A stretch of DNA of 64,000 nt, from the NCBI RefSeq assembly GCF_009649955.1, contig NZ_CP045875.1, positions 2,860,001-2,924,000 of the forward strand, in the 5' to 3' direction. The notes below the pieces were generated by a model. That model was not told where the DNA came from and did not search any database. It saw only the letters and a program-made list of their open reading frames with translations. Positions 19,762-34,184 of this stretch are shown here, piece after piece (the first letter of the stretch is position 1; every line of letters begins with the position of its first letter). The position numbers were made by a program, and so were the translations under genes. This stretch comes from Heliorestis convoluta (GTDB taxonomy: Bacteria; Bacillota; Desulfitobacteriia; Heliobacteriales; Heliobacteriaceae).

Positions 19762-22545
19762 TTATACCAAAATTCTTTTATAGCGCCCTTCTCTCTTTGA
19801 CCAATCTTTTTCTTTTTCTATTCTTACGGCACAATGCTTTAGTTCTGGTATCTTCGCAATGGGATCGCGAGCACCGTTGGTTAGTTCATTAATTCGACTT
19901 TCCCTAAAGTGAAAAGAAGAAAAAACAAGACCAGGCGCAACGCCTTCTGTCAAGTATACCGGTAAAGTTACAGCACCTCGTCGCGAGTGAAGGGTAACAA
20001 GGTCGCCCGTTCGTAAACCTTCTTGTGCGCCATCTTTTGGGTGCATCTCTAGGTGTTCTTCCGGGTAAGCCCAGTGAAGGGCCCCTCGACGAGTCATAGA
20101 CCCCCCGTGATAGTGAAAAAGCCGTCTACCTGTCGAGAGGATGTAGGGATAGTTCTGGCAAGGTTCCTCTGCAGGACCTAGGTAGGGCACGCCATGAAAC
20201 TTTCCTTTTCCTCGTGAAAAGCTTTCTTCATGAAGGCGTGCTGTTCCAGGATGATCAGAACTGGGGCAGGGCCAACAGAGGCTGCCTTCTTTATGTAGCC
20301 TTTCGGGCGTTATGCCACCGTAGGCGCTGTTGACCAGGTTAATCTCTTCTAGAATTTCTGCCGGGCTTTCATAATTCATGGGATAGCCCAATCGACAAGA
20401 TAGTTCTGTGAGAATTTTCCAGTCAGGACGGGCTTCTCCTCTTTGTTCAATGGCTTTATGCAAAGATTGTACTCTTCGTTCTGTATTGGTAAAGGTGCCT
20501 TCTTTTTCAGCAAAAGAGGCAGCCGGTAAGACCACATGGGCTAGCTCTGCTGTTTCTGTTAAAAAGATATCAGCCACAACGAGTATGTCTAACTTTTGCA
20601 ATGCTTTGACGACATGACTGCTGTTGGCATCTGCTAAGACAGGGTTTTCTCCCATGATAAACATAGCTTTGATGGTCCCTTCAGCAGCACCATCTATCAT
20701 CTCACCGACAGTACAGCCGGGTCGAATCGATAGTTTTTCTTCTTCTACAGCCCAAAGTGACGCCATCTTGCGCCGTATTTTTTCATCTTGTACAGCTTGA
20801 TAGCCTGGATAGACGTCGGGCAAAGCGCCCATGTCACAGGCGCCTTGTACGTTATTTTGACCGCGCAAAGGATTGACGCCTGTGCCTGGACGTCCTATAT
20901 GGCCTGTGAGCAAAGCAAGGTTGGCAATGGCCATTACGTTGTAAGTGCCTGTAAAGCGCTGTGTTATGCCCATGGTGTAGTAAATGGCGGCTTTTTTTGC
21001 GCGACTGTAGGCTCTTGCTACAGCTATGATTTGTTCTGGTCGAAGACCTGTGATTTCGGCAGCCCATTGGGGCGTACAAGGAGCGACGGCTGCTGCTAGC
21101 GCCTTAAAGTTCTCTGTTCTCTCTTCAACAAATCTATTGTTATAAAGTTTTTCTTCTATGATCACATGGGCTAGGCTATTTAAGAAAGCGAGATCGGTCC
21201 CTGCTTTGATTTGTATATGTTCTTGGGCCAGTTGTGCTATCTCTGTCTTGCGCGGGTCAATGACAATGGCCTGGCTTCCTTTCTTGATGGCTTGAATCAT
21301 TTGCTGGGCAATTACAGGATGGGTCTCTGTGGTGTTTGAACCAAGGACGAGAAAGGTGTCGCTTTTTTCAATATCTTTGATCGGATTGGTCATAGCACCT
21401 GAGCCAAATGCAGCAGCAAGACCGGCTACAGAAGCGCTGTGACAGAGACGAGCGCAGTGATCGATGTTATTCGTACCAATAACAGCACGGCTGATCTTGT
21501 TAAGCAGATAATTCTCTTCGTTCGTTGTTCTAGCAGAAGCTAAAAAGGCAAAAGCATCGGGCCCTTCTGCTTGCAACAGATCTTTGAATTTCTTTGCAAT
21601 CGTAGAAAAGGCTTCTTCCCAAGTCGTTTCTATCAGTTTTCCATTTTTACGAATCAAAGGCTTGGTTAATCGTTCAGGATGGTGAATAAAGCCCATGCCA
21701 AAGCGCCCTTTGGCACAAAGCGATCGTCCATTGACAATGCCCCCACCATGGGACGGCGCACTGGCCGCTATGACTTCTCGGACACCCTTTTTCTGTACCA
21801 CTTCTAATTCGATGGTACAGCCTGTTCCACAGTAGGGACAGAGGGTAGGGACTTTTTCAATCTCCCAGCTTCGCGCTTTGCCTTTTTTCGTTTTATCGAT
21901 CAAAGCACCGGTCGGACATACCTGAAGACAGGCACCACAAAAAACACAAGGCGAGTCCTGCAAAAGGCCGTCGCCTTCGCTCACGACTTTGGTGGCAAAG
22001 CCTCGATAGGCATAGTCTAGAACGTGCCGCCCCTGTTCTTCTTGACAGATGGTTACACATTTGCCACAAAGAATGCACTTGGTCATATGGCGTTCTATAA
22101 AAGGATTGCTGTCATCGCTGGCATATTGATTTTTCTTCCCTTGATCTTGTTCCGCAGGAAAGTCCACACCGTATTCATAGGCATATTGCTGCAATGCGCA
22201 GTGGCCTGCTTTTTCACAGCGCAAGCAATCGTTCGGATGGTTGGCTAACAAAAGTTCTAGAATTGTTTTCCTCGCTTCTATTGCGTCTTCTGAATCTGTT
22301 TCTATGATGAAACCGGGCTGAACAGGGGTGACGCAAGCCGGTTCAAGTCTTTTCTCATTTGTTTTTCCATCAATGACCGTAACGACGCAAAGGCGACAGG
22401 ATCCTTGGTTCGAAAGAAATGGATCGTGACAAAGCGTAGGGATTTCTAGGTTCAGCTTACGAGCGACTTGAAGCACTGTCATGCCTGGTGATACGGTCTG
22501 CTGCTGGCCATTGATGGTGATGGTGATGTCTTGCACTTTTTGCAT
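19762..22545 (-). CDS. fdhA: NAD-linked formate dehydrogenase, catalytic (molybdopterin) subunit, Cys form
   Basis: Predicted to oxidise formate (or reduce CO2) at a Mo/W-bis-pterin site. Order: N-terminal [2Fe-2S] domain (CHDPFLSNQGSCRLC), the His-Cys cluster motif (CLRCEKAGHC), two [4Fe-4S] ferredoxin motifs (CILCGKCVTIC and CVFCGACLQVC), a [4Fe-4S] motif (CPYCGTGC, about residue 230), then the molybdopterin domains. The metal-ligand position reads ARLCHSASV, so the residue is Cys and no in-frame TGA/selenocysteine is needed. At 927 residues it matches NAD-dependent FDH alpha chains. NuoF- and NuoE-like partners lie upstream in the same operon. A hydrogenase is excluded because no H-cluster motifs are present. 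Confidence 0.88.
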   Translation of the reverse strand: MQKVQDITITINGQQQTVSPGMTVLQVARKLNLEIPTLCHDPFLSNQGSCRLCVVTVIDGKTNEKRLEPACVTPVQPGFIIETDSEDAIEARKTILELLLANHPNDCLRCEKAGHCALQQYAYEYGVDFPAEQDQGKKNQYASDDSNPFIERHMTKCILCGKCVTICQEEQGRHVLDYAYRGFATKVVSEGDGLLQDSPCVFCGACLQVCPTGALIDKTKKGKARSWEIEKVPTLCPYCGTGCTIELEVVQKKGVREVIAASAPSHGGGIVNGRSLCAKGRFGMGFIHHPERLTKPLIRKNGKLIETTWEEAFSTIAKKFKDLLQAEGPDAFAFLASARTTNEENYLLNKISRAVIGTNNIDHCARLCHSASVAGLAAAFGSGAMTNPIKDIEKSDTFLVLGSNTTETHPVIAQQMIQAIKKGSQAIVIDPRKTEIAQLAQEHIQIKAGTDLAFLNSLAHVIIEEKLYNNRFVEERTENFKALAAAVAPCTPQWAAEITGLRPEQIIAVARAYSRAKKAAIYYTMGITQRFTGTYNVMAIANLALLTGHIGRPGTGVNPLRGQNNVQGACDMGALPDVYPGYQAVQDEKIRRKMASLWAVEEEKLSIRPGCTVGEMIDGAAEGTIKAMFIMGENPVLADANSSHVVKALQKLDILVVADIFLTETAELAHVVLPAASFAEKEGTFTNTERRVQSLHKAIEQRGEARPDWKILTELSCRLGYPMNYESPAEILEEINLVNSAYGGITPERLHKEGSLCWPCPSSDHPGTARLHEESFSRGKGKFHGVPYLGPAEEPCQNYPYILSTGRRLFHYHGGSMTRRGALHWAYPEEHLEMHPKDGAQEGLRTGDLVTLHSRRGAVTLPVYLTEGVAPGLVFSSFHFRESRINELTNGARDPIAKIPELKHCAVRIEKEKDWSKREGRYKRILV

Positions 22546-22557
22546 TGCTTTTCCCTC

Positions 22558-24342
22558 CTATACCCGAACAATGGCCTTGTATTTACAACTTTCTAGGCAG
22601 GCAGCGCATTTGATACAACGGATGCTGTCGATGCGGTGGGCTTCTTTCGCCTTTCCTTCGATGCATCTAGTGGGACAGCGCCGTGCACAGAGGGTACAGC
22701 CAACACAGCGTTCCGGCAAAATGGTATAGCGTAATAAGGCGGTACAAGCACCGGCGGGACAGCGCTTTTCTCTAATATGACTTTCGTATTCAGAGCGAAA
22801 ATACCGTAGTGTCGTTAGGACAGGATTGGGTGCTGTCTGTCCCAAGCCACAGAGAGAGGTCTTCTTGACGACGGCAGCCAATCGTTCTAGCTTTTTCAAG
22901 TCTTCTTCTTGCCCTTGTCCTGCCTTGATCTTTTCTAGTATTTCAAGCATACGCAAGGTGCCTTCACGACAAGGTGTGCATTTGCCACAAGACTCTTTCT
23001 GCGTAAAATTAAGGAAAAACCGAGCAATATCGACCATACAAGTGCTTTCATCCATAACAACAAGTCCACCTGATCCAACCATAGCGCCGGCCTTCTTTAA
23101 GCTATCGTAATCAACTGGAAGGTCGAGCAGTTCCTCCGGCAAGCATCCACCTGAGGGGCCACCAATTTGTACTGCTTTGAAAGCTTTTCCATCTTTGACA
23201 CCACCACCAATATCCATGATGATGTCTCGCAAAGACAGTCCCATGGGCACTTCAACCAAGCCTGTGTTGTTTACTTTGCCTGTTAAAGCAAAGACTTTTG
23301 ATCCTTTGGAGTTATCTGTGCCCATGGAAGAAAACCAAGCAGCGCCTTTTCGTAAGATGGCAGGGATGTTGGCAAAGGTTTCTACGTTGTTAATGTTTGT
23401 TGGCTTTCCCCAGAGACCTTGAGTGGAGGGATAAGGCGGACGCTTGCGAGGCATGCCTCGCTGCCCTTCCATCGAGGCAATTAAGGCACTTTCTTCGCCA
23501 CAGACAAAGGCGCCTGCACCGGCTTTGATTTCTATTGTAAAGTTAAAAGTGCTTTGTAAGGTTTTTGCACCGAGGAACCTTTTGGCATTTGCTTGATCAA
23601 TTGCTTTTTGCAATCGTTCAATGGCCAGTGGATATTCCGCTCTGACGTAGACATAGCCTTTTTGCGCTCCAATGGCATAGCCTGCTATCATCATTCCTTC
23701 TAAGACAGCATGGGGATCGCCTTCTAGGACAGAACGATCCATGAATGCACCGGGATCGCCTTCGTCAGCATTGCAGATTATGTACTTTTCATCGCCTGCT
23801 GCTTCTGCAGTAAGCTGCCATTTCAGTCCCGTGGGAAAACCGCCACCACCGCGTCCGCGCAGTTCTGAACGCTTTATTTCGTCGATCACCTGGCGTGGTG
23901 TCATCGATAAGGCTTTTTTTAGACCTTTATATCCCTCTTGGGCTACATAGTCTTCTATTTTTTCAGGGTCGATGCGTCCACAATTGCGAAGGACCGTTCT
24001 TTCTTGCTTGCTATAAAAATTGATGTCTTCATATGTTTCAACGTTTCTTCCTGTAAGGGCATCTTGGTAGAGCAAGGGAGTGATAATTTTTTGGTTTATT
24101 AGATGGCTTTCTACAATCTCTTGAACATCTTTTTCTTCTACTCGACAGTAGAAGACTTTTTCAGGCTCTATGATGACGAGCGGACCTTGTTCGCAAAATC
24201 CATGACAGCCTGTTAGGACAATCTCGAGAGTCTTATGAAGCTCCCTTTCTTCTAATGCTTTCTGAAATGCTTTTTCTACTTTTTTCGCACCCGAAGCAAT
24301 GCAACCTGTGCCGGCGCAAATCAAGATACGCCTTTGATCCAA
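22558..24342 (-). CDS. NuoF/HymB-like NAD- and FMN-binding subunit
   Basis: The diaphorase subunit linking the formate dehydrogenase to NAD(P). The N-terminal thioredoxin-like domain (CAGTGCIASGA ... TGCHGFC) binds [2Fe-2S]. The central flavin/NADH domain shows RGRGGGGFPTGLKW (about residue 170) and ICNADEGDPGAFMDR. The [4Fe-4S] motif ESCGKCTPCREGT lies at about 460, and two C-terminal [4Fe-4S] motifs (CVGCTLCARRC, CIKCAACLESC) are present. It has 594 residues. It starts at TTG 24342, with GGGAGGG eight bases upstream, and lies 12 bp before fdhA. The same subunit type also serves in bifurcating hydrogenases, but the adjacent catalytic subunit is FDH. Confidence 0.9.
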   Translation of the reverse strand: MDQRRILICAGTGCIASGAKKVEKAFQKALEERELHKTLEIVLTGCHGFCEQGPLVIIEPEKVFYCRVEEKDVQEIVESHLINQKIITPLLYQDALTGRNVETYEDINFYSKQERTVLRNCGRIDPEKIEDYVAQEGYKGLKKALSMTPRQVIDEIKRSELRGRGGGGFPTGLKWQLTAEAAGDEKYIICNADEGDPGAFMDRSVLEGDPHAVLEGMMIAGYAIGAQKGYVYVRAEYPLAIERLQKAIDQANAKRFLGAKTLQSTFNFTIEIKAGAGAFVCGEESALIASMEGQRGMPRKRPPYPSTQGLWGKPTNINNVETFANIPAILRKGAAWFSSMGTDNSKGSKVFALTGKVNNTGLVEVPMGLSLRDIIMDIGGGVKDGKAFKAVQIGGPSGGCLPEELLDLPVDYDSLKKAGAMVGSGGLVVMDESTCMVDIARFFLNFTQKESCGKCTPCREGTLRMLEILEKIKAGQGQEEDLKKLERLAAVVKKTSLCGLGQTAPNPVLTTLRYFRSEYESHIREKRCPAGACTALLRYTILPERCVGCTLCARRCPTRCIEGKAKEAHRIDSIRCIKCAACLESCKYKAIVRV

Positions 24343-24357
24343 GGTACCGTCCCTCCC

Positions 24358-24852
24358 TTATGGGTATTGTTGTAAGATAGCAGTGACTTGGTCCGGCTTC
24401 AAGCGTCCATAGGTGTCTTCGTTAATTGTAATAACGGGCGCTAAACCACAAGCACCGATGCAAGCAACCGATTCTAAGGTAAAGCGGCCATCTTCTGTTG
24501 TTTCACCGTCTCCAATGACCAGTTCTTCCTGCAATGCTGCAAAAATTTTATCACCGCCACGGACGTGACAAGCTGTGCCCATGCAGATACGAATGATATG
24601 GCGGCCTCTTGGACTTACGTGAAATTGGCTGTAAAAAGTGGTCACGCCATAGACTTGGACAAGAGCGATATCTTGACTTTTTGCAATCAAGGGCAGCACT
24701 TCTTCTGGCAAATATCCATAGAGGGTCTGTGTTTCTTGCAAAAGGGCGATGAGTGCACCTTTTTTTCCTTTGTACTTTTGTAAGATCTCTTGCAAAGCTT
24801 GGTCTTTCTGCTGGGAAGAGTTTTTAGAGGCACTGTTACAACAACGATTCAT
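24358..24852 (-). CDS. NuoE/HymA-like [2Fe-2S] subunit
   Basis: A thioredoxin-like electron-transfer subunit of the formate dehydrogenase complex. The [2Fe-2S] ligands are visible as CMGTACHVRGG and CIGACGLAP, and the family segment YGYLPEEVLPLIA lies near residue 45. The longer frame to 24927 is rejected because ATG 24852 has AAGAAGG upstream and gives the expected N-terminus; 164 residues result. It overlaps the end of the upstream folate ligase by 17 bp and is 15 bp from the NuoF-like gene, so all four genes look like one operon. Confidence 0.9.
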   Translation of the reverse strand: MNRCCNSASKNSSQQKDQALQEILQKYKGKKGALIALLQETQTLYGYLPEEVLPLIAKSQDIALVQVYGVTTFYSQFHVSPRGRHIIRICMGTACHVRGGDKIFAALQEELVIGDGETTEDGRFTLESVACIGACGLAPVITINEDTYGRLKPDQVTAILQQYP

Positions 24853-25507
24853 GAGCAAAACCTTCTTTCTGAATCTTTTTTTGCCTCTGCCCCAACTCGG
24901 CCAGGGACTGGCCGAGTTCGCAATCAATCCAACCTTTTTCTGTCACAATGTGATTAACAGGAATGTCATGGGGTTCCGATAAGAGCTTATGAACGATCTG
25001 TATTTGGTAGGCCAATCCGATTTTTATTGTTTTATCATGGATCTGGGTAAAAAAGCGGTCATAATAACCAGCGCCATAACCCAATCGATGACCTTGTCGA
25101 TCGAAAGCCAGGGCCGGAACAAAGATTAGATCGATTTCCGTAGGTGCGACCAGAGATAAACTTTCTTTTCGTGGCTCTAAAATCCCCCAAGTACCGGCGA
25201 CAAGGTCGTCCTGGCTTTTTATCTCACAAGGTAGAATTGCTTTTTCCGAGGGATGACACAAAGGCATCACCATTCTTTTGCCTTGCTGTAAAGTTACGTC
25301 AATCAGTTCTCTTGTGTCTACTTCTTGGCGAAAGCTGGCGTAAGCCATAATTACTTTTGCATCATAGAAGAGCCTTGACTGCACGATGATCTCGGTAATC
25401 TTTTTACTTTTTTCCTCTTGCTCCTCTAGACTCATTTGTTTTCGCTGATGAAGGATCTGAGCCCGTAATTTTGCTTTATCTTCTTTTCTATCATATATAT
25501 ATGACAA
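24836..25507 (-). CDS. 5-formyltetrahydrofolate cyclo-ligase
   Basis: ATP-dependent conversion of 5-formyl-THF to 5,10-methenyl-THF. The family motifs are clear: an N-terminal Lys-rich helix, AYASFRQEVDTRELI (about residue 55), and the C-terminal FVPALAFDRQGHRLGYGAGYYDRF (shown in part; about 130-153). It has 223 residues. The only in-frame start near the usual N-terminus is TTG 25507, with a weak ribosome-binding site. As first gene of the formate dehydrogenase operon it suggests a link between formate and one-carbon folate metabolism (inference). Confidence 0.9.
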   Translation of the reverse strand: MSYIYDRKEDKAKLRAQILHQRKQMSLEEQEEKSKKITEIIVQSRLFYDAKVIMAYASFRQEVDTRELIDVTLQQGKRMVMPLCHPSEKAILPCEIKSQDDLVAGTWGILEPRKESLSLVAPTEIDLIFVPALAFDRQGHRLGYGAGYYDRFFTQIHDKTIKIGLAYQIQIVHKLLSEPHDIPVNHIVTEKGWIDCELGQSLAELGQRQKKIQKEGFAHESLL

Positions 25508-26657: not shown

Positions 26658-26687
26658 TTGACACCCTATACCCCTATCAGGTATATT
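26658..26687 (+). promoter_or_regulatory. Promoter with embedded CsoR/CstR-like operator
   Basis: TTGACA and TATATT are separated by 18 bases. The inverted repeat TATACCCCTATCAGGTATA (26667-26685) fills the spacer and enters the -10 hexamer. The same 19-mer, with two differences and in identical geometry, occurs at 34157-34175 in another promoter. Operators of this AT-flanked C-run/G-run type are bound by CsoR/CstR-family repressors; the regulator gene is not in the window, so this is inferred. Confidence 0.65.
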
Positions 26688-26725: not shown

Positions 26726-27718
26726 ATGAGCAACCTAACGCGGCGTAACTTTTTTAAAAGAACGGCCATTTCAGGTGTCGTCGGTGCTGCCGTTTTAACA
26801 GCAGGGAAAGAAGCTCTCGCTTCGCCTTCTGAAATTGGTACTGTCGGTACCCTGATTGATTTAACTCGTTGTGATGGCTGTGTCCATGAAAACACACCAC
26901 AATGTGTATCAGCCTGTAGACAGAAGAACCAGCGTCGTTTTCCCGAACCAGAAAAGCCCATTCTTGATTATTGGCCTCACAAAACCCATGAAGATTGGTC
27001 CGACAAAAGAGAGCTCACCAATCGCCTGACTCCTTACAATTGGACTTATGTACAGAATGTAAAAGTGCAAAAAGACGGTGAAACGAAAGAAGTCTTCGTT
27101 CCTCGCCGCTGTATGCACTGTGAAAATCCACCTTGTGCTCATATCTGCCCTTTTAGTGCCAATACCAAAACAGCAGAAGGCGTCGTAGTGATCGATGATG
27201 AAATCTGTTTCGGTGGCGCCAAATGTCGCGATGTTTGCCCTTGGGAAATCCCGGCCCGCCAAGCTGGTGTGGGACTTTATATGAAGTTTGCACCGAAGTT
27301 CGGTGGCGGCGGCGTTATGTACAAGTGTGATCTTTGCATTGATCGTCTCCGTGCTGGCAAGGCACCGGCCTGTGTCGATGCCTGTCCCAATCAAGCGATT
27401 CTATATGGTCAAAAAGAAGCGCTTTACCATGAAGCCCTGACCAGAGCGAAAGCAATCAACGGTTATGTTTATGGTGATAAAGAAAATGGTGGTACTACAA
27501 CCTTCTACGTCTCTGAAGTACCCTTTGAAGATCTTCATCAGGCGATGGTAGAGCAGTCGATAGACGGCAAGCCCGGTCGTTCTGGCATGCCTGTTGGCGT
27601 TGGTAACGCTATGGACAATGCCAACAATTTGGCCAAAGCAGTTCTTTATGCGCCTTTTGCTGGTATGGTAGCAGCCGGAGTGGCAGCTTATCGAACCATG
27701 AAAGGAGATGATAAGTAG
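26726..27718 (+). CDS. Tat-exported four-cluster ferredoxin-like electron-transfer subunit
   Basis: A 330-residue iron-sulfur protein of the FdhB/HybA/PsrB class. A twin-arginine signal (SNLTRRNFFKRTAISG) indicates export or insertion at the outer membrane face. Cys motifs follow for about four [4Fe-4S] clusters: CDGCVHENTPQCVSAC, CMHCENPPCAHIC, CFGGAKCRDVC and CDLCIDR with CVDAC. A hydrophobic C-terminal stretch (VLYAPFAGMVAAGVAAY) may be a membrane anchor. The start has AAAGGAGG upstream. It overlaps the cytochrome b gene by one base. No molybdopterin or hydrogenase catalytic subunit is adjacent, so its electron donor or acceptor is unknown. Confidence 0.88.
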   Translation: MSNLTRRNFFKRTAISGVVGAAVLTAGKEALASPSEIGTVGTLIDLTRCDGCVHENTPQCVSACRQKNQRRFPEPEKPILDYWPHKTHEDWSDKRELTNRLTPYNWTYVQNVKVQKDGETKEVFVPRRCMHCENPPCAHICPFSANTKTAEGVVVIDDEICFGGAKCRDVCPWEIPARQAGVGLYMKFAPKFGGGGVMYKCDLCIDRLRAGKAPACVDACPNQAILYGQKEALYHEALTRAKAINGYVYGDKENGGTTTFYVSEVPFEDLHQAMVEQSIDGKPGRSGMPVGVGNAMDNANNLAKAVLYAPFAGMVAAGVAAYRTMKGDDK

Positions 27719-28482
27719 TGGCTCCTAGATTTAAAGAGAGTGAAAAGATTCTGGAAAACGGTAAAGTACTACGGCATGGCAAAACAACGCGATTGCTGCA
27801 CTGGCTCATTGCCTTATCAATTTTTTCTCTTTTCTTTTCGGGATTTGGGCAGATGCCCATGTATAAGCGTTACATGCTCGTCGATGTACCCGGCATGGCT
27901 TGGACAGGCGATTACGCCCTGACGCTGGTGCTTCATTATGTCGGTGCCATTGCCTTAATTGTCCTTGTGGCTTTTCATCTTTTTTATCATGCTTTTCGCC
28001 GAGAATTTGATATTGTACCCCGCAAAGGCGACGTGGGTGAATCAGTGCAAATTATGAAAGCCATGGTAACAGGCAAAGACGAACCACCTTCTCATAAATA
28101 TCTAGCCGAACAGCGTCTCGCTTATGCTTTTATTGGTGTGAGCATTCTAGGTGTCATCATTACAGGCATGGTGAAAGTCTACAAGAATCTTCCCGGTGTT
28201 GATCTAGCCGAAAATACAATCTTCTGGATGACACAACTACACAACATCACAGCCATGATGATCTTACTCGGCATCGTCTTACACCTTGCCGCTTTCCTAG
28301 TACCAGCAAACCGCAAGCTTATTCCTTCTATGTTCAGCGGTGAAGTCGATGCTTCTTACGTAGAACATCGCCACAGCAAATGGTGGGCACAATTGCTTGC
28401 TAAAAGCACCGGTTCATCAACAGGCACAACAAGAGCATCTACCTCTTCTTCTGATAAGAGTTCAAAAAACATCTCTTCTTAA
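27718..28482 (+). CDS. Formate dehydrogenase gamma-like cytochrome b
   Basis: An integral membrane di-haem cytochrome b561/FdnI-type protein of 254 residues. Four membrane helices are apparent, with haem-ligand-like His residues in RLLHWLIAL (about residue 24), VLHYVGAIALIVLVAFHLFYHAF and LHNITAMMILLGIVLHL. The Ser/Thr-rich tail of about 25 residues is unusual. Its GTG start shares one base with the stop of the FeS subunit, so the two form a translationally coupled quinone-linked module. Promoter and operator are described at 26658-26687, and a strong terminator follows. Confidence 0.87.
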   Translation: MAPRFKESEKILENGKVLRHGKTTRLLHWLIALSIFSLFFSGFGQMPMYKRYMLVDVPGMAWTGDYALTLVLHYVGAIALIVLVAFHLFYHAFRREFDIVPRKGDVGESVQIMKAMVTGKDEPPSHKYLAEQRLAYAFIGVSILGVIITGMVKVYKNLPGVDLAENTIFWMTQLHNITAMMILLGIVLHLAAFLVPANRKLIPSMFSGEVDASYVEHRHSKWWAQLLAKSTGSSTGTTRASTSSSDKSSKNISS

Positions 28483-28591: not shown

Positions 28592-29296
28592 TCACTTGAT
28601 TACAAAACTATCGCCTGGCTCCATCAACTGACACTGGGCATCACTACCCTCATGAACCATTTTCTTAAAAGCTTCGCCGTCTTGTTGCAGCAAAGGAAAG
28701 GTATTGTAATGCATAGGAACAACATAGCGAGGATGAAGCCACTTGGTCGCAAAGATTGCATCTTCCGGCCCCATTACATAATTGTCCCCAATTGGCAGAA
28801 GCGCTACATCAAGACGTTGACTTTTGAGGTGACAAAGGTTGATCAATTCCATATCTCGAAAAAGCCCTGTGTCACCAGCATGATAAATACTTTTACCGCT
28901 CATTTGAATTAAAAAGCCACAAGGATTGCCACCGTAAATCATTCGGTCACCTTCTATAATGGCCGATCCATGGTGAGCCGTTGTAAGTCGCACTCTCCCA
29001 AAGTCAAAGTCATGCTTGCCCCCAATGTGCATACCATGAACTTTAGCGCCTTTGGTACTGCAATAGTGAGCAATCTCATGGTTCGTAATAATGGTAGCAT
29101 CACAACGTTTGGCAATATCAATGGCATCTCCGAGATGGTCTCCATGGCCATGGGTAACCAATATATATTGTGCCTGTATTTGATCAGCTTTCGTAGGACT
29201 AGCAGGGTTGCCTGTAAACCAAGGGTCGACAAGCACTTTGTATTTGCCATCGTCTAAAAGAAAGTTGGCGTGACCGTAAAAGGTAAGCATGAGCAT
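28592..29296 (-). CDS. UPF0173 metal-dependent hydrolase (metallo-beta-lactamase fold)
   Basis: A cytoplasmic MBL-fold protein of about 234 residues in the UPF0173/UlaG-like family. The metal-binding motif THGHGDHLGD (about residue 50), TAHHGSAI (about 108) and YHAGDTGLF (about 135) are visible, along with the family start LTFYGHANFLL. The ATG at 29296 is chosen, 11 bases after AAGGAGG; the TTG at 29305 is too close to that site. Substrate is unknown. It stands alone between the cytochrome b operon and the aldehyde oxidoreductase genes. Confidence 0.87.
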   Translation of the reverse strand: MLMLTFYGHANFLLDDGKYKVLVDPWFTGNPASPTKADQIQAQYILVTHGHGDHLGDAIDIAKRCDATIITNHEIAHYCSTKGAKVHGMHIGGKHDFDFGRVRLTTAHHGSAIIEGDRMIYGGNPCGFLIQMSGKSIYHAGDTGLFRDMELINLCHLKSQRLDVALLPIGDNYVMGPEDAIFATKWLHPRYVVPMHYNTFPLLQQDGEAFKKMVHEGSDAQCQLMEPGDSFVIK

Positions 29297-29345
29297 AAAT
29301 AACAAGGCCTCCTTAACACTAACTCCATCTCGTTACATTAGATCC

Positions 29346-31151
29346 CTATACATCAATTCTAGGCGAACCACCCGATGGTAGATCTTCTCGATCGGGTACA
29401 GGTCGATGGCCGCCCCGGTTTTCTTGGTCAATTTTCTGCCATAAAGCGACTAGCTTCTCAAATTGCTTGCGTTCAAGCTTGCCTTTATAGCTTGGTGTTT
29501 CAAAAAGACGATCCGGTAAATCTTTCGGATCCACTTTATAACCTAATTTTTCTTTGATTCGCCACTTGATCTGATGGATCTCTTCGCCAAGCCAGTCCAG
29601 CTCTTCGTCACTTCGTCCCATGCCGACGGCATCAAGGCATTCACGAACAGAATTGCGATCATAAGCTTTGCGAGAGAAAAGACAAATGGTGAGACAGTTT
29701 AAGACATTGCGCTCTTTTTCTTCGGCTAGCAGGGCCTTGACAAGCTCTTCATCATCTAGAGGTGGTCGTTGTTGATCAAGGGCGTAGCCTGCGTTATCAA
29801 GGTGAGAGTGTCGGGCCCCTACAAGCTGCCCAAGCAAGTTGCCATAGCCTGTATGGTATCCTGCCATCTCCAATCCCCCAATGGCGCAGGCATACTCTTC
29901 CCCGCCATATTTTGCCGTAACATGAGGTAGCCCTTTCCCCAGAGCAACATAGAAATCATTGGTTCCATTGCAAAGATGACCCAATGCTTCGTTAAACCCT
30001 TTGAAATCACCAAAGCGAACGGGCGTTACCGTTTCTTTCTCTGTGATCAAGCCTCTTTCAAAAGCTTCTGCCGTCCAAGCCAAGACGACACCCGAAGTAA
30101 TTGCGTCCAAGCCATCTAATTCTACTCTTTCAATCAAGCCTAGAATATCTTCACGATTGCCTAAGCCTAACATAGAGCCGAAAGAATAGACCAGTTCATG
30201 ATCGTACGATAGATGGACTGACTCATATTCATAAGGTTCAGCAAATTGACGACGATGCAGGGCAATGTGAATACAGCCAATGGGGCAACCGGAGCAGGCA
30301 ATTTTTCGAATTAAGTTATGCTCGGCAAAAGCTTCCCCAGAGATACTTTCTGCTTCTTCAAAGCTTCCAGATTGACAGTTGTTTGTCGGCAAGCCACCTA
30401 TTTCACTTAGCGGAATGACATTGCCGGCTGTGCCTAAGCCATGATATTTGAGCATGACATCGGTGTCATTAATTTTATGATACATATTGCGATACACTTT
30501 GGCATAAGCGCTTTTGTTTTCGATAGGGTACGATTCGGTGCCATGGACGACAATGGCTTTAATATATTTTGAACCTAAAACAGCACCGAGGCCAAGTCGC
30601 CCCCAATGTCGGAAGGTATCAACAACGACGTTGGCAAAAGGAATTTGTCTTTCTCCAGCAATCCCTATACGAACAATGGAACGCTTTCCCGTCCCTTCTT
30701 CCAGATCGCGCAAGATGCGGGCCGATTCTTCGGAGGACAATCCCCAGATACCTATGCCGTTTTTGAAGTCAACGCCCTGGGCTTTAATAGAAAGATAGAT
30801 CGGTCCATCGGCTTTACCGGTAATTACAATGGCATCCCAGCCTGAGAAGCGCATGGCCATGCCAAAGCGAAGGCCAGCATAAGATTCTCCCAGTTCCCCT
30901 GTCTGAGGAGAGACAAAAAGAGCAGGCACTTTCGTTATGACAGGATAGAGAAAGTTAAGAGCCCCATTGGCAAAGACAACAGGTTGTTCGGGATGGAGTG
31001 GAGGAAGGCCGGGCTTGCATTGTTCTTCAAAAAGCTTGATACCGACACCGAGACCACCGAGATAGGGATAGAGATCTTTTCGGTTCTCAAATCGAACAGT
31101 CTGATCTGAAACATTAATATAGAGAACACGAATGTAATCTTTGTTTAACAC
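29346..31151 (-). CDS. Aldehyde:ferredoxin oxidoreductase family protein
   Basis: A tungsten/molybdopterin enzyme that interconverts aldehydes and carboxylic acids with ferredoxin. The N-terminal domain shows YLGGLGVGIKLFEEQ; the [4Fe-4S] ligands are CSGCPIGC (about residue 285) and a distal Cys in LNCLTIC (about 490); pterin-binding stretches such as WGRLGLGAVLGSK (about 185) and GLEMAGYHTGYGN are present. The 601-residue length is typical. It starts at GTG 31151 with GAGGAG upstream. The ferredoxin-like gene just upstream is its probable electron partner. The exact aldehyde substrate cannot be read from the sequence. Confidence 0.9.
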   Translation of the reverse strand: MLNKDYIRVLYINVSDQTVRFENRKDLYPYLGGLGVGIKLFEEQCKPGLPPLHPEQPVVFANGALNFLYPVITKVPALFVSPQTGELGESYAGLRFGMAMRFSGWDAIVITGKADGPIYLSIKAQGVDFKNGIGIWGLSSEESARILRDLEEGTGKRSIVRIGIAGERQIPFANVVVDTFRHWGRLGLGAVLGSKYIKAIVVHGTESYPIENKSAYAKVYRNMYHKINDTDVMLKYHGLGTAGNVIPLSEIGGLPTNNCQSGSFEEAESISGEAFAEHNLIRKIACSGCPIGCIHIALHRRQFAEPYEYESVHLSYDHELVYSFGSMLGLGNREDILGLIERVELDGLDAITSGVVLAWTAEAFERGLITEKETVTPVRFGDFKGFNEALGHLCNGTNDFYVALGKGLPHVTAKYGGEEYACAIGGLEMAGYHTGYGNLLGQLVGARHSHLDNAGYALDQQRPPLDDEELVKALLAEEKERNVLNCLTICLFSRKAYDRNSVRECLDAVGMGRSDEELDWLGEEIHQIKWRIKEKLGYKVDPKDLPDRLFETPSYKGKLERKQFEKLVALWQKIDQENRGGHRPVPDREDLPSGGSPRIDV

Positions 31152-31174
31152 TTATTATTCACTCCTCTTCGGTC

Positions 31175-31777
31175 TCAGTTCCCATCATGAACTAGATCAT
31201 TTGGATTTTTCCTCTTTGACGAGGGACCTTCTAGCTCCTTAATAGGAAAAGCACCGCCAGGGGCATTTTCTTCTGCGTGAGGACTTACTTCCATTGTCAA
31301 GCATTCATGAGGACAAAAGCTAGCACAGTTACCACATTGAATACAGATAATAGCTTTTTTCTCATCTTCATCATAGTCAATGACTTGAACGACACAAGCG
31401 TCGGCACATTTTCTACAGCCAATACAACGATCTCGATGATAGCGTATCCCGCCGCCGGCTCTTGGAACAAGGGCCTGCACACAGCAAGCTCGCGCGCAAG
31501 GCGGATCGATACAAGCTCGACATATGTTGGCTACAAATTTGCTCGTATAGCCGCCTCTTGTTAGGATTTTAATGGCGCTTTTGTGCATCGAGTAGCTGCG
31601 ATAAACCATGCGAGCACAAGCTTGCATGCACGAGTAGCAGGCGATACACCGATTCATGCCTGGTGCCATTAAGACGCGAGGGCGACGCTTCTGGTCCCCT
31701 TCTTTCTTCTGAGCAACCACAGGACCGGCTTCACCTGTTACAACCTTTTCTTTGTCATTCTTTTCATCCACTGCCAT
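31175..31777 (-). CDS. Four-cluster ferredoxin, partner of aldehyde oxidoreductase
   Basis: An AorB/HycB-like soluble ferredoxin of about 200 residues. [4Fe-4S] motifs are visible: CIACYSCMQAC, CRACIDPPCARAC, CIGCRKCADAC and CIQCGNCASFC. No signal peptide or membrane segment is seen, so it should act in the cytoplasm. The frame is open to 31903 but lacks a good start there; ATG 31777 or GTG 31771 follow a GAGGTG block and are more plausible. It lies 23 bp before the aldehyde oxidoreductase gene, in one operon, and downstream of a cluster of DnaA-box-like sequences. Confidence 0.85.
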   Translation of the reverse strand: MAVDEKNDKEKVVTGEAGPVVAQKKEGDQKRRPRVLMAPGMNRCIACYSCMQACARMVYRSYSMHKSAIKILTRGGYTSKFVANICRACIDPPCARACCVQALVPRAGGGIRYHRDRCIGCRKCADACVVQVIDYDEDEKKAIICIQCGNCASFCPHECLTMEVSPHAEENAPGGAFPIKELEGPSSKRKNPNDLVHDGN

Positions 31778-31872
31778 CACCTCAAAACCATTATGAACCA
31801 TTTTAGTGTTACTATGCAAGGTATTTCCTATAGCAAGAACGTAACATCGTCGAATGTATGTATGGCTTATCT

Positions 31873-31957
31873 TTATCCCCAATCTTGTCCTTATATTTTC
31901 CACAGCATAAAAGCCGATTATATATAGTTATTAACAGACTTATACACATTATCCACA
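31873..31957 (+). other. Cluster of four DnaA-box-like 9-mers
   Basis: Within 85 bp and in one orientation lie TTATCCCCA (31873), TTTTCCACA (31896), TTATACACA (31940) and TTATCCACA (31949). The last matches the DnaA-box consensus exactly and the third directly abuts it. The site is upstream of the aldehyde oxidoreductase operon, not near dnaA. A DnaA-titration or regulatory site is possible; chance enrichment in AT-rich DNA is the alternative. Confidence 0.45.
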
Positions 31958-32760: not shown

Positions 32761-33810
32761 TTACGATTCTGTTCTGATTAAAGGTAAGTTGGCCTGGCCA
32801 TTTAAGTCACTGCCTGCTCGTTCTCCTCTTTGCAGGCGATAATAGCCAGCACAAGCGATCATAGCAGCATTGTCTGTGCATAACTCTAGTGGTGGAACGA
32901 AGAGCTTCTTATCTTTCTTTTGTAGAGCTTTTTCTAAGCGCTGGCGTAGGTAGCCATTGGCAGCAACGCCACCGGCTAAGAGAACCGTTGATATCTGCAG
33001 ACTTTCTGCGGCACTGCAAGTTTTCTCTACCAGTACATCGACAACAGCTTCTTGGAAAGAAGCCGCTAGAGCCGCTTTGTCTACTTCTTCCCCTTTTAGC
33101 TTGGCTCGATTGAGCAAGTTAAGAACGGATGATTTTAAGCCACTGAAGCTAAAATCATAGCTATCTTTGAGCCAAGCTCGCGGCAGCTCATAAGCAGTAG
33201 GGTCGCCTTGGCGAGCTAACTTTTCAATGAGTGGCCCACCAGGATACCCTAAGCCGAGTGCTCTGGCAATCTTGTCATAGGCCTCTCCGGCTGCATCATC
33301 ACGGGTTGACCCAAGAATTTTCATCGTTCCGTGATCTTGTAGATAGATCAAGTGGCTATGACCGCCTGAGACAACGAGACAGAGAAGCGGAAAGGAAAGC
33401 TGAGGATATTGTAGAAAATTGGCATAGATATGCCCTTCAATATGATGAACCCCTACAAGGGGCAATTCTCTAGCCATTGCAACGCCTTTGGCATAAGCAA
33501 CACCGACAAGAAGAGCACCGACAAGACCAGGCCCTTGGGTAACCGCGAGGGCTGTCACATCAGACCAACGACATTGTCCTTCTTCTAGCGCCCGATCAAC
33601 GACAGCCGTAATACTTTCCATATGCTTTCTCGAAGCAATCTCCGGTACAACACCACCAAAAACCTGATGCGTCGCCACCTGAGATGCAATAATGTTCGAA
33701 CGAATCTTATGTCCTTCTTCAACAATCGCAGCTGAGGTCTCGTCACAACTCGTCTCTATAGCTAATATCACTTTCCCTTCTGGGAAAGCTGGGGAAGCAT
33801 GGCCTGTCAA
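32761..33810 (-). CDS. tsaD: tRNA threonylcarbamoyladenosine transferase TsaD
   Basis: Transfers threonylcarbamoyl to A37 of ANN-decoding tRNAs, working with TsaB and TsaE (both encoded near 36-37 kb). The ASKHA-fold core shows AIETSCDETSAAIV at the N-terminus, the iron/metal-binding motif HHIEGHIYAN (about residue 120), VVSGGHSHLIYL and LLAGGVAANGYLR (about 275). The 349-residue length is standard. It starts at TTG 33810, with GAGGTGG eight bases upstream. It is separated from tsaE-tsaB-rimI by three other genes on the same strand. Confidence 0.95.
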   Translation of the reverse strand: MTGHASPAFPEGKVILAIETSCDETSAAIVEEGHKIRSNIIASQVATHQVFGGVVPEIASRKHMESITAVVDRALEEGQCRWSDVTALAVTQGPGLVGALLVGVAYAKGVAMARELPLVGVHHIEGHIYANFLQYPQLSFPLLCLVVSGGHSHLIYLQDHGTMKILGSTRDDAAGEAYDKIARALGLGYPGGPLIEKLARQGDPTAYELPRAWLKDSYDFSFSGLKSSVLNLLNRAKLKGEEVDKAALAASFQEAVVDVLVEKTCSAAESLQISTVLLAGGVAANGYLRQRLEKALQKKDKKLFVPPLELCTDNAAMIACAGYYRLQRGERAGSDLNGQANLPLIRTES

Positions 33811-33823
33811 CGTCTAATCCACC

Positions 33824-34120
33824 TCATAATCGTACATTTTCAACTTCAAGCCCATGAGGAAACCAACCCTCGCTGCTTGTGATTCGAGCGGGTCTTTCTT
33901 CTGCAATCAAGAATAGCTTGTGGGGATAGTAAAGGGTAACTTCATCGACCTTTACTACATTGTAGGGTGCTTCATCCTCAGGCTTGCCTTCCACGACCAC
34001 AGGGAGATATTGATCGATACAGCAACAACCTCCGCCAACGACACAGCGCAAATCAATCGTTACGATATTACCGAGTGCAGCAATTTTCACTTTTCCTTCT
34101 TCTGTGATCTCCCATCGCAT
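33824..34120 (-). CDS. Small Cys-cluster protein (CC/Se-motif-like)
   Basis: A 98-residue protein with the motif CVVGGGCCCIDQYLP (about residues 26-40), then a C-terminal beta-rich part (VVKVDEVTLYYPHKLF). This layout resembles the small HesB-fold 'CC/Se motif' (seleno)protein family, seen mostly in anaerobes; the assignment is tentative and no biochemical role is established. Cys-Cys pairs suggest redox, persulfide or metal binding. The ATG at 34120 has a GGGGG block upstream. Its promoter contains the same CsoR/CstR-like operator as the FeS/cytochrome b operon, which supports a sulfur- or metal-stress role (inference). Confidence 0.7.
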   Translation of the reverse strand: MRWEITEEGKVKIAALGNIVTIDLRCVVGGGCCCIDQYLPVVVEGKPEDEAPYNVVKVDEVTLYYPHKLFLIAEERPARITSSEGWFPHGLEVENVRL

Positions 34121-34154: not shown

Positions 34155-34184
34155 ATTATACCCCCATTAGGTATATGTTTGCAA
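34155..34184 (-). promoter_or_regulatory. Promoter with embedded CsoR/CstR-like operator
   Basis: On the minus strand, TTGCAA and TATAAT are separated by 18 bases. The inverted repeat TATACCCCCATTAGGTATA (plus strand, 34157-34175) occupies the spacer and runs into the -10. In both this promoter and that at 26658-26687, exactly three bases separate the -35 from the repeat. Confidence 0.65.

Follow-up and report, generated by a model that had tools for sequence, protein, structure and literature searches.

Two neighbouring promoters on the chromosome of Heliorestis convoluta HH, an alkaliphilic, photosynthetic heliobacterium of soda lakes, carry near-identical sites that are very probably operators of the repressor encoded by csoR-trxA. 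The best explanation of the data as a whole is that an autoregulated, thiol-based CsoR repressor controls thioredoxin, a CC/Se motif family (seleno)protein and a quinone-linked Fe-S/cytochrome b complex. We give this reading a probability of about 0.62. Judged by sequence, the regulon itself is strongly supported, and its effector would be of a persulfide or disulfide type. CsoR-family repressors are mostly known as copper sensors encoded beside copA or as persulfide sensors encoded beside sulfurtransferases; the evidence here points to a sulfur/thiol-stress circuit rather than a copper one.

Two probable operators and their class

The window is the whole stretch of H. convoluta DNA that was analysed, 64,000 nucleotides. 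Its features relevant here are:

26658..26687, + strand: sigma-70 promoter of the Tat-FeS operon, TTGACA-18-TATATT, with operator 1 over the spacer and -10
26667..26685, + strand: CsoR-type (type 2) operator 1, TATACCCCTATCAGGTATA
26668-26684, + strand: core of operator 1, ATACCCCTATCAGGTAT
26726..27718, + strand: Tat-exported multi-[4Fe-4S] protein (HmcB/HybA-like), below the NCBIfam cut-offs, with orthologues found
27718..28482, + strand: cytochrome b561-type membrane subunit (PF01292), second gene of the operon
32761..33810, - strand: tsaD, starting 13 bp downstream of the CC/Se gene
33824..34120, - strand: CC/Se motif family (seleno)protein (NF041239), 98 aa, GGGCCC motif
34155..34184, - strand: sigma-70 promoter of the CC/Se gene, TTGCAA-18-TATAAT, with operator 2 over the spacer and -10
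34157..34175, - strand: CsoR-type operator 2, TATACCCCCATTAGGTATA on the + strand and TATACCTAATGGGGGTATA on the gene strand

The preliminary description of this DNA had reported that 26667-26685 and 34157-34175 agree at 17 of 19 positions, and on the + strand they do. At up to three mismatches the window contains no further match to either 19-mer, and 100 shuffles give an expectation of 0. A scan of the surrounding 8.3 kb, which holds 16 promoters, ranks 26658-26687 first (11/12) and 34184-34155 on the minus strand joint second (10/12), and places the start of both repeats 3 bases past the -35, with each repeat overlapping the -10, as had been described. The further claim that the two promoters share one geometry holds for position and fails for the polarity of the C run, which differs between the two genes. 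When each operator is taken on the strand of its own gene, their orientations are opposite and they agree at only 12/19 positions. The repeat itself is imperfect and asymmetric, being self-complementary at 12/19. To call the promoters unlinked was too strong: the two units are syntenic neighbours 7.5 kb apart, and H. acidaminivorans keeps the same neighbourhood with the units 7.46 kb apart.

The type-2 operator consensus of Streptomyces lividans CsoR is ATATACCCCTNAGGGGTATAT, defined by a TAC-N9-GTA dyad, and the S. lividans csoR operator contains ATACCCCTGGTGGGTAT (PMC3902906), which fits the window pattern ATACCCC-N5-GGTAT exactly. The TAC and GTA arms of the window sites likewise stand 9 bp apart, as TAC-CCCTATCAG-GTA and TAC-CCCCATTAG-GTA with TA flanks. 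A type-2 operator also has a pair of G/C tracts 2-4 bases apart; here one arm carries a CCCC or CCCCC tract and the other just GG (AGG), with GGG or GGGG in other members of the set. Because of the exact fit to the S. lividans operator, we class the window sites, by their sequence, as type-2 CsoR operators with one short arm (GG). The type 1 operator of RcnR, a single G/C tract in TACT-G6-N-AGTA with arms 6-9 bp apart, was set aside, as the tract is broken here and TAC and GTA are 9 bp apart.

The csoR-trxA repressor and its probable signal

The regulator had been placed outside the window, and it is. The genome has exactly one CsoR-family gene (PF02583), about 2.35 Mb away at 531996-532274 of the chromosome when counted from a GTG start, in the order moeB/thiF-like gene, csoR, trxA (thioredoxin). 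A genome lacking any such gene had been named as a refuting outcome, and this outcome did not occur. A third perfect site, ATACCCCGTATGGGTAT, lies directly past the -10 of the TTGACA-17-TATAAT csoR promoter, just before the probable GTG start. A family search of named genomes with the heliobacterial CsoR as query gave 80 loci, in which the next gene encodes thioredoxin 47 times and a P-type ATPase 18 times. The site stands within 120 bp upstream of csoR in 43 of 46 trxA-linked loci (shuffle expectation 0.2), which are not independent because many come from closely related Desulfosporosinus strains. The csoR-trxA arrangement with its conserved autoregulatory operator occurs in heliobacteria, Desulfitobacteriaceae and other Clostridia. 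Such a site is also present at 11/18 copA-linked csoR loci.

Numbered from MDCTHS, the H. convoluta protein has C34, H59 and C63, an intact Cys-His-Cys ligand set. Both sensor cysteines are invariant among the trxA-linked proteins (47/47). The equivalent of His61 is Q or Y in 7/47, including Q in Heliophilum fasciatum, and the equivalent of Tyr35, which precedes the first Cys, is missing from 11/47, among them all heliobacteria, where Gly, Ala or Ser stands instead. In copper CsoR this Tyr is a second-shell residue. All 18 copA-linked proteins keep both Tyr and His. By Fisher test of the trxA-linked against the copA-linked set, Tyr loss gives P 0.03 and His loss P 0.18 (not significant); these sequences are phylogenetically non-independent, and we read the difference as suggestive only. 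In the CsoR tree one branch with support 97/88 splits the trxA-linked from the copA-linked group. It puts Geobacillus CsoR 4m1p, whose structure is known and which was deposited as a copper-sensitive operon repressor, with the copA-linked proteins and the Heliorestis protein with the trxA-linked ones. Long branches and an alignment of only 86 columns make the deeper placement of CstR, InrS and the CsoR of G003 unreliable; G003 is a genome of the same family, but more distant. The G003 CsoR (L175 2024-2311) has lost the second sensor Cys, reading SCHLVDQ in place of NHTRKC, and may therefore sense by a different chemistry.

The H. convoluta protein was compared with three family types and fits none of them in full. 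It has the Cys-His-Cys set of a copA-type copper CsoR, but the Tyr is absent, the downstream gene is trxA and the site was not found at the copA-type loci of its genome. FrmR has Pro2 next to Cys35, a feature not conserved among the relatives. CstR has two Cys and no His; H. convoluta has the His, and Heliophilum fasciatum (Q) and 6 more of the trxA-linked proteins lack it.

The operator does not identify the effector, since copper CsoRs use the same operator class. At somewhat better than even odds, the physiological signal is a thiol or sulfur species rather than copper or another agent. The preliminary description had offered copper or persulfide; copper efflux now appears disfavoured, given the lack of a site at the genome's copA-type loci, the separate protein group and the lost Tyr, and a thiol or persulfide signal is the better inference from sequence.

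A copper regulon, in which the single CsoR would sense Cu(I) and its targets answer copper-induced thiol and Fe-S damage, is unlikely. The ligand set is kept, so that Cu(I) binding by the H. convoluta protein is possible; copper CsoRs use this class of operator, and similar sites occur at copA-linked loci too. However, the three best-scoring copA-type ATPase loci of H. convoluta, taken with 1.5 kb flanks, have no site at up to two mismatches, and the sites that the genome has at 0-1 mismatch are all away from copA genes. A second CsoR, of the classical kind, is retained by H. modesticaldum, H. chlorum and H. mobile; in the first two its gene directly precedes copA, and at these two copA-linked csoR loci no site of this kind was seen. 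The trxA-linked proteins also group apart, with Tyr lost and His sometimes lost.

It is less likely still that the CsoR regulon senses some other electrophile or metal, such as formaldehyde or another aldehyde, Ni/Co, or selenite/tellurite. The stretch between the two targets contains an aldehyde ferredoxin oxidoreductase (AOR, 29346-31151) and an aldolase-like gene, and the C-H spelling without second Cys in the G003 protein is FrmR-like and could hint at aldehydes. An N-terminal Pro2 is a feature of FrmR (PMC5016687), and a GTG start would give the H. convoluta CsoR such a Pro2 (MPALDC). But this Pro2 would be present in H. convoluta only, its relatives starting MDC, MLDC or VNC; the AOR operon of the window has no site upstream at up to three mismatches; and the targets elsewhere are thioredoxin and thioredoxin reductase, not aldehyde genes.

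Genes that carry the site

A pattern search of the H. convoluta chromosome (3,218,981 bp) found exact ATACCCC-N5-GGTAT three times, before csoR-trxA, the Tat-FeS/cytochrome b operon and the CC/Se gene. Random placement had been named as a refuting outcome, and the perfect copies are not randomly placed: all are in promoters. Three were found against 0.36 expected, and the Poisson P of about 0.006 is a rough guide only, because the pattern was derived from two of the three sites. We take conservation in relatives to be far stronger evidence than this count. With up to three mismatches, ATACCCCYATYAGGTAT has 11 matches in the genome, no more than the 19 of a reversed-pattern control, and for this reason we relied on a site only if it was exact or if it lay in a promoter and was also kept in relatives. 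Perfect ATACC-N7-GGTAT sites within moeA-, trmFO- and carA-like genes are coding and were taken as chance. Two 1-mismatch promoter sites stand before genes whose orthologues carry sites in relatives, one at 1283537 (-) before a NapH-like Fe-S membrane protein gene and one at 1366435 (+), 185 bp upstream of a metallo-beta-lactamase-fold protein gene. Both genes are likely further members of the regulon.

Among 22 close orthologues of the Tat-FeS gene, from heliobacteria and two more family-level groups of the same class that include Desulfosporosinus/Desulfitobacterium-type genomes, 21 have the site at up to one mismatch, against a shuffle expectation of 0.045, and all 22 at up to two; the weaker paralogues have it in 0/8. 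The site likewise occupies the promoter spacer in H. acidaminivorans, Heliophilum and H. modesticaldum. In G003 it lies between csoR and the Tat-FeS operon, which point away from each other. The Fe-S protein is related to HmcB (140 bits, cut-off 420) and HybA (139.8 bits, cut-off 263), and is a member of neither family. No adjoining catalytic subunit was seen at the Tat-FeS loci inspected.

Some heliobacteria oxidise sulfide to sulfur without a recognised SQR or FccAB, and no gene of either kind is known in heliobacteria (PMC13209566). The Tat-FeS/cytochrome b pair could be the missing sulfide/persulfide-oxidising, quinone-reducing system, or part of it, with CsoR-trxA as its persulfide-responsive switch; we think this improbable. 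Heliophilum fasciatum is sulfide-sensitive (PMC9147875) and has the Tat-FeS operon with its site, and no Tat-FeS orthologue was found in H. chlorum or H. mobile; the presence of the operon thus does not follow sulfide tolerance.

With 44.3 bits against a cut-off of 40, the CC/Se protein is a member of NF041239, a family to which no function is assigned, and none of the solved structures compared is like it (best E 0.9). The site precedes all seven CC/Se genes of this type in heliobacteria, overlapping the TATAAT, four times perfect and three times with two mismatches. CC/Se paralogues elsewhere in the class have it in 0/30, a weak control, as upstream was taken in one locus orientation only. 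In Heliobacterium chlorum and H. mobile (L045, L046) an in-frame TGA (selenocysteine) replaces the first Cys of GGGCCC, which makes the first Cys of the CCC motif the likely reactive residue. In Heliomicrobium the motif is GGCSC, so that a series of Cys/Sec exchanges exists inside one family. The order CC/Se-tsaD is the same in H. acidaminivorans and H. chlorum, and tsaD is probably co-transcribed with the CC/Se gene from the second promoter.

Between the two operator units lie the AOR gene with a multi-Fe-S partner (together 29346-31903, -) and a UlaG-like metallo-beta-lactamase (28592-29305), and H. acidaminivorans (L077) keeps the entire block in synteny. A NuoE/NuoF/NuoG-like cluster occupies 19762-24927 (-) of the window, its NuoG-like subunit having 927 aa; the published genome paper on H. 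convoluta counts two nuoEFG copies in the species.

The site is also found in relatives before genes for a CoA_binding-TrxB fusion, trxB, small ferredoxins and the NapH-like Fe-S protein, upstream of an SBF-family permease gene and, in weaker form, before a TlpA-like protein gene. The fusion gene has it in H. modesticaldum, H. chlorum, H. mobile and others and only as a 2-mismatch site in Heliophilum; in H. convoluta and H. acidaminivorans none could be recognised. Going by their predicted products, the shared theme of the site-bearing genes is thiol redox plus Fe-S electron transfer. At one permease locus (L194, genome G017) the symmetric site ATACCCCCTAGGGGTAT lies within a long palindromic stretch. 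Two genomes, G019 and G021 (L183, L184), have a separate CstR-like gene of the CsoR family beside genes for an SQR-like flavoprotein and DsrE/TusA-like proteins, with the operator variant ATACC...GGGGGTAG or its complement. This locus is a second, CstR-type circuit in the same genomes.

The preliminary description's central proposal, a CsoR-family operator common to both promoters, is thus strongly supported by the site in the csoR promoter, by the relatives and by the fit to a published operator. Palindromes serve many regulator families, and the CsoR assignment here is made from DNA and protein sequence; even so, it is very improbable that the operators belong to an unrelated regulator and resemble CsoR operators by coincidence, given the third site in the csoR promoter, its retention in 43/46 loci, its position between csoR and the Tat-FeS operon in G003 and the exact match to published CsoR operators. 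That two promoter spacers are alike by chance has next to no likelihood: the window holds just two copies and about 0.36 perfect sites are expected per genome, but window shuffles give 0 and orthologous genes conserve the site in 21/22 and 43/46 cases, a phylogenetic footprint by which this reading is already contradicted.

Proposed circuit and known systems

In the thiol-based circuit that we favour, apo (reduced) CsoR would cover the spacer between -35 and -10 and block RNA polymerase, repressing by occlusion, and through the third copy of the site it would repress its own csoR-trxA operon. The likeliest agents to modify the conserved Cys pair would be persulfides or polysulfides (or some different thiol oxidant) building up at high sulfide. 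Modification would lower DNA affinity and release CsoR, as in CstR (PMC9405070) and YrkD (PMC9918477). Thioredoxin, the CC/Se (seleno)protein and the Tat-exported Fe-S/cytochrome b pair would then be expressed. Thioredoxin and the CC/Se protein may restore thiol redox balance, and the extracytoplasmic Fe-S protein and cytochrome b may exchange electrons with the quinone pool. This model fits its setting, as H. convoluta can grow with sulfide at 10 mM and forms sulfur globules (PMC7143216) in the absence of a known sulfide oxidoreductase (PMC13209566).

A csoR-trxA pair with a conserved autoregulatory operator is a third arrangement of the CsoR family, and the same operator is fixed before a two-gene Fe-S/cytochrome b module of unknown function. 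A regulator usually annotated as metal-sensitive gains a regulatory assignment, and the CC/Se (seleno)protein family, itself without an assigned function, is placed in a probable thiol-stress regulon. These genes are concrete candidates for sulfide handling in heliobacteria, whose published genomes report no SQR or FccAB. A CsoR-family regulon is known as a kind; the csoR-trxA arrangement with these targets was not found described in the literature searched, outside which lie many subscription journals.

The S. lividans CsoR regulon, with type-2 operators at csoR, copZA1 and copZA2, shares the TAC-N9-GTA dyad, C/G tracts (one of them short in the window sites), the TA repeats and a site at csoR itself (PMC3902906). 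It differs in its targets, which are copper efflux genes rather than trxA, an Fe-S/cytochrome b operon and a CC/Se (seleno)protein, and in its regulator, that of H. convoluta being in the trxA-linked group, apart from copA-linked CsoR. The CstR regulons (S. aureus cst, the cst-like regulon of E. faecalis with its CoA-persulfide reductase, and Bacillus YrkD) likewise join a dithiol CsoR-family repressor to thiol-redox targets, and the CoA_binding-TrxB fusion that carries the site in other heliobacteria is a possible functional analogue of CoAPR (PMC9405070). Unlike CstR, the H. convoluta protein keeps the His, and its gene is linked to trxA instead of to rhodanese, SQR or PDO genes; in Desulfitobacterium-like genomes the CstR-like gene is a separate one, next to a gene that is SQR-like. 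Thermus TTHA1953 is again a CsoR-family repressor of dispersed sulfur and cytochrome genes that is released by thiol oxidation (PMC10318464), although its operator, TACNNTACNNNNGTANNGTA, has no C/G run and its targets are sox genes.
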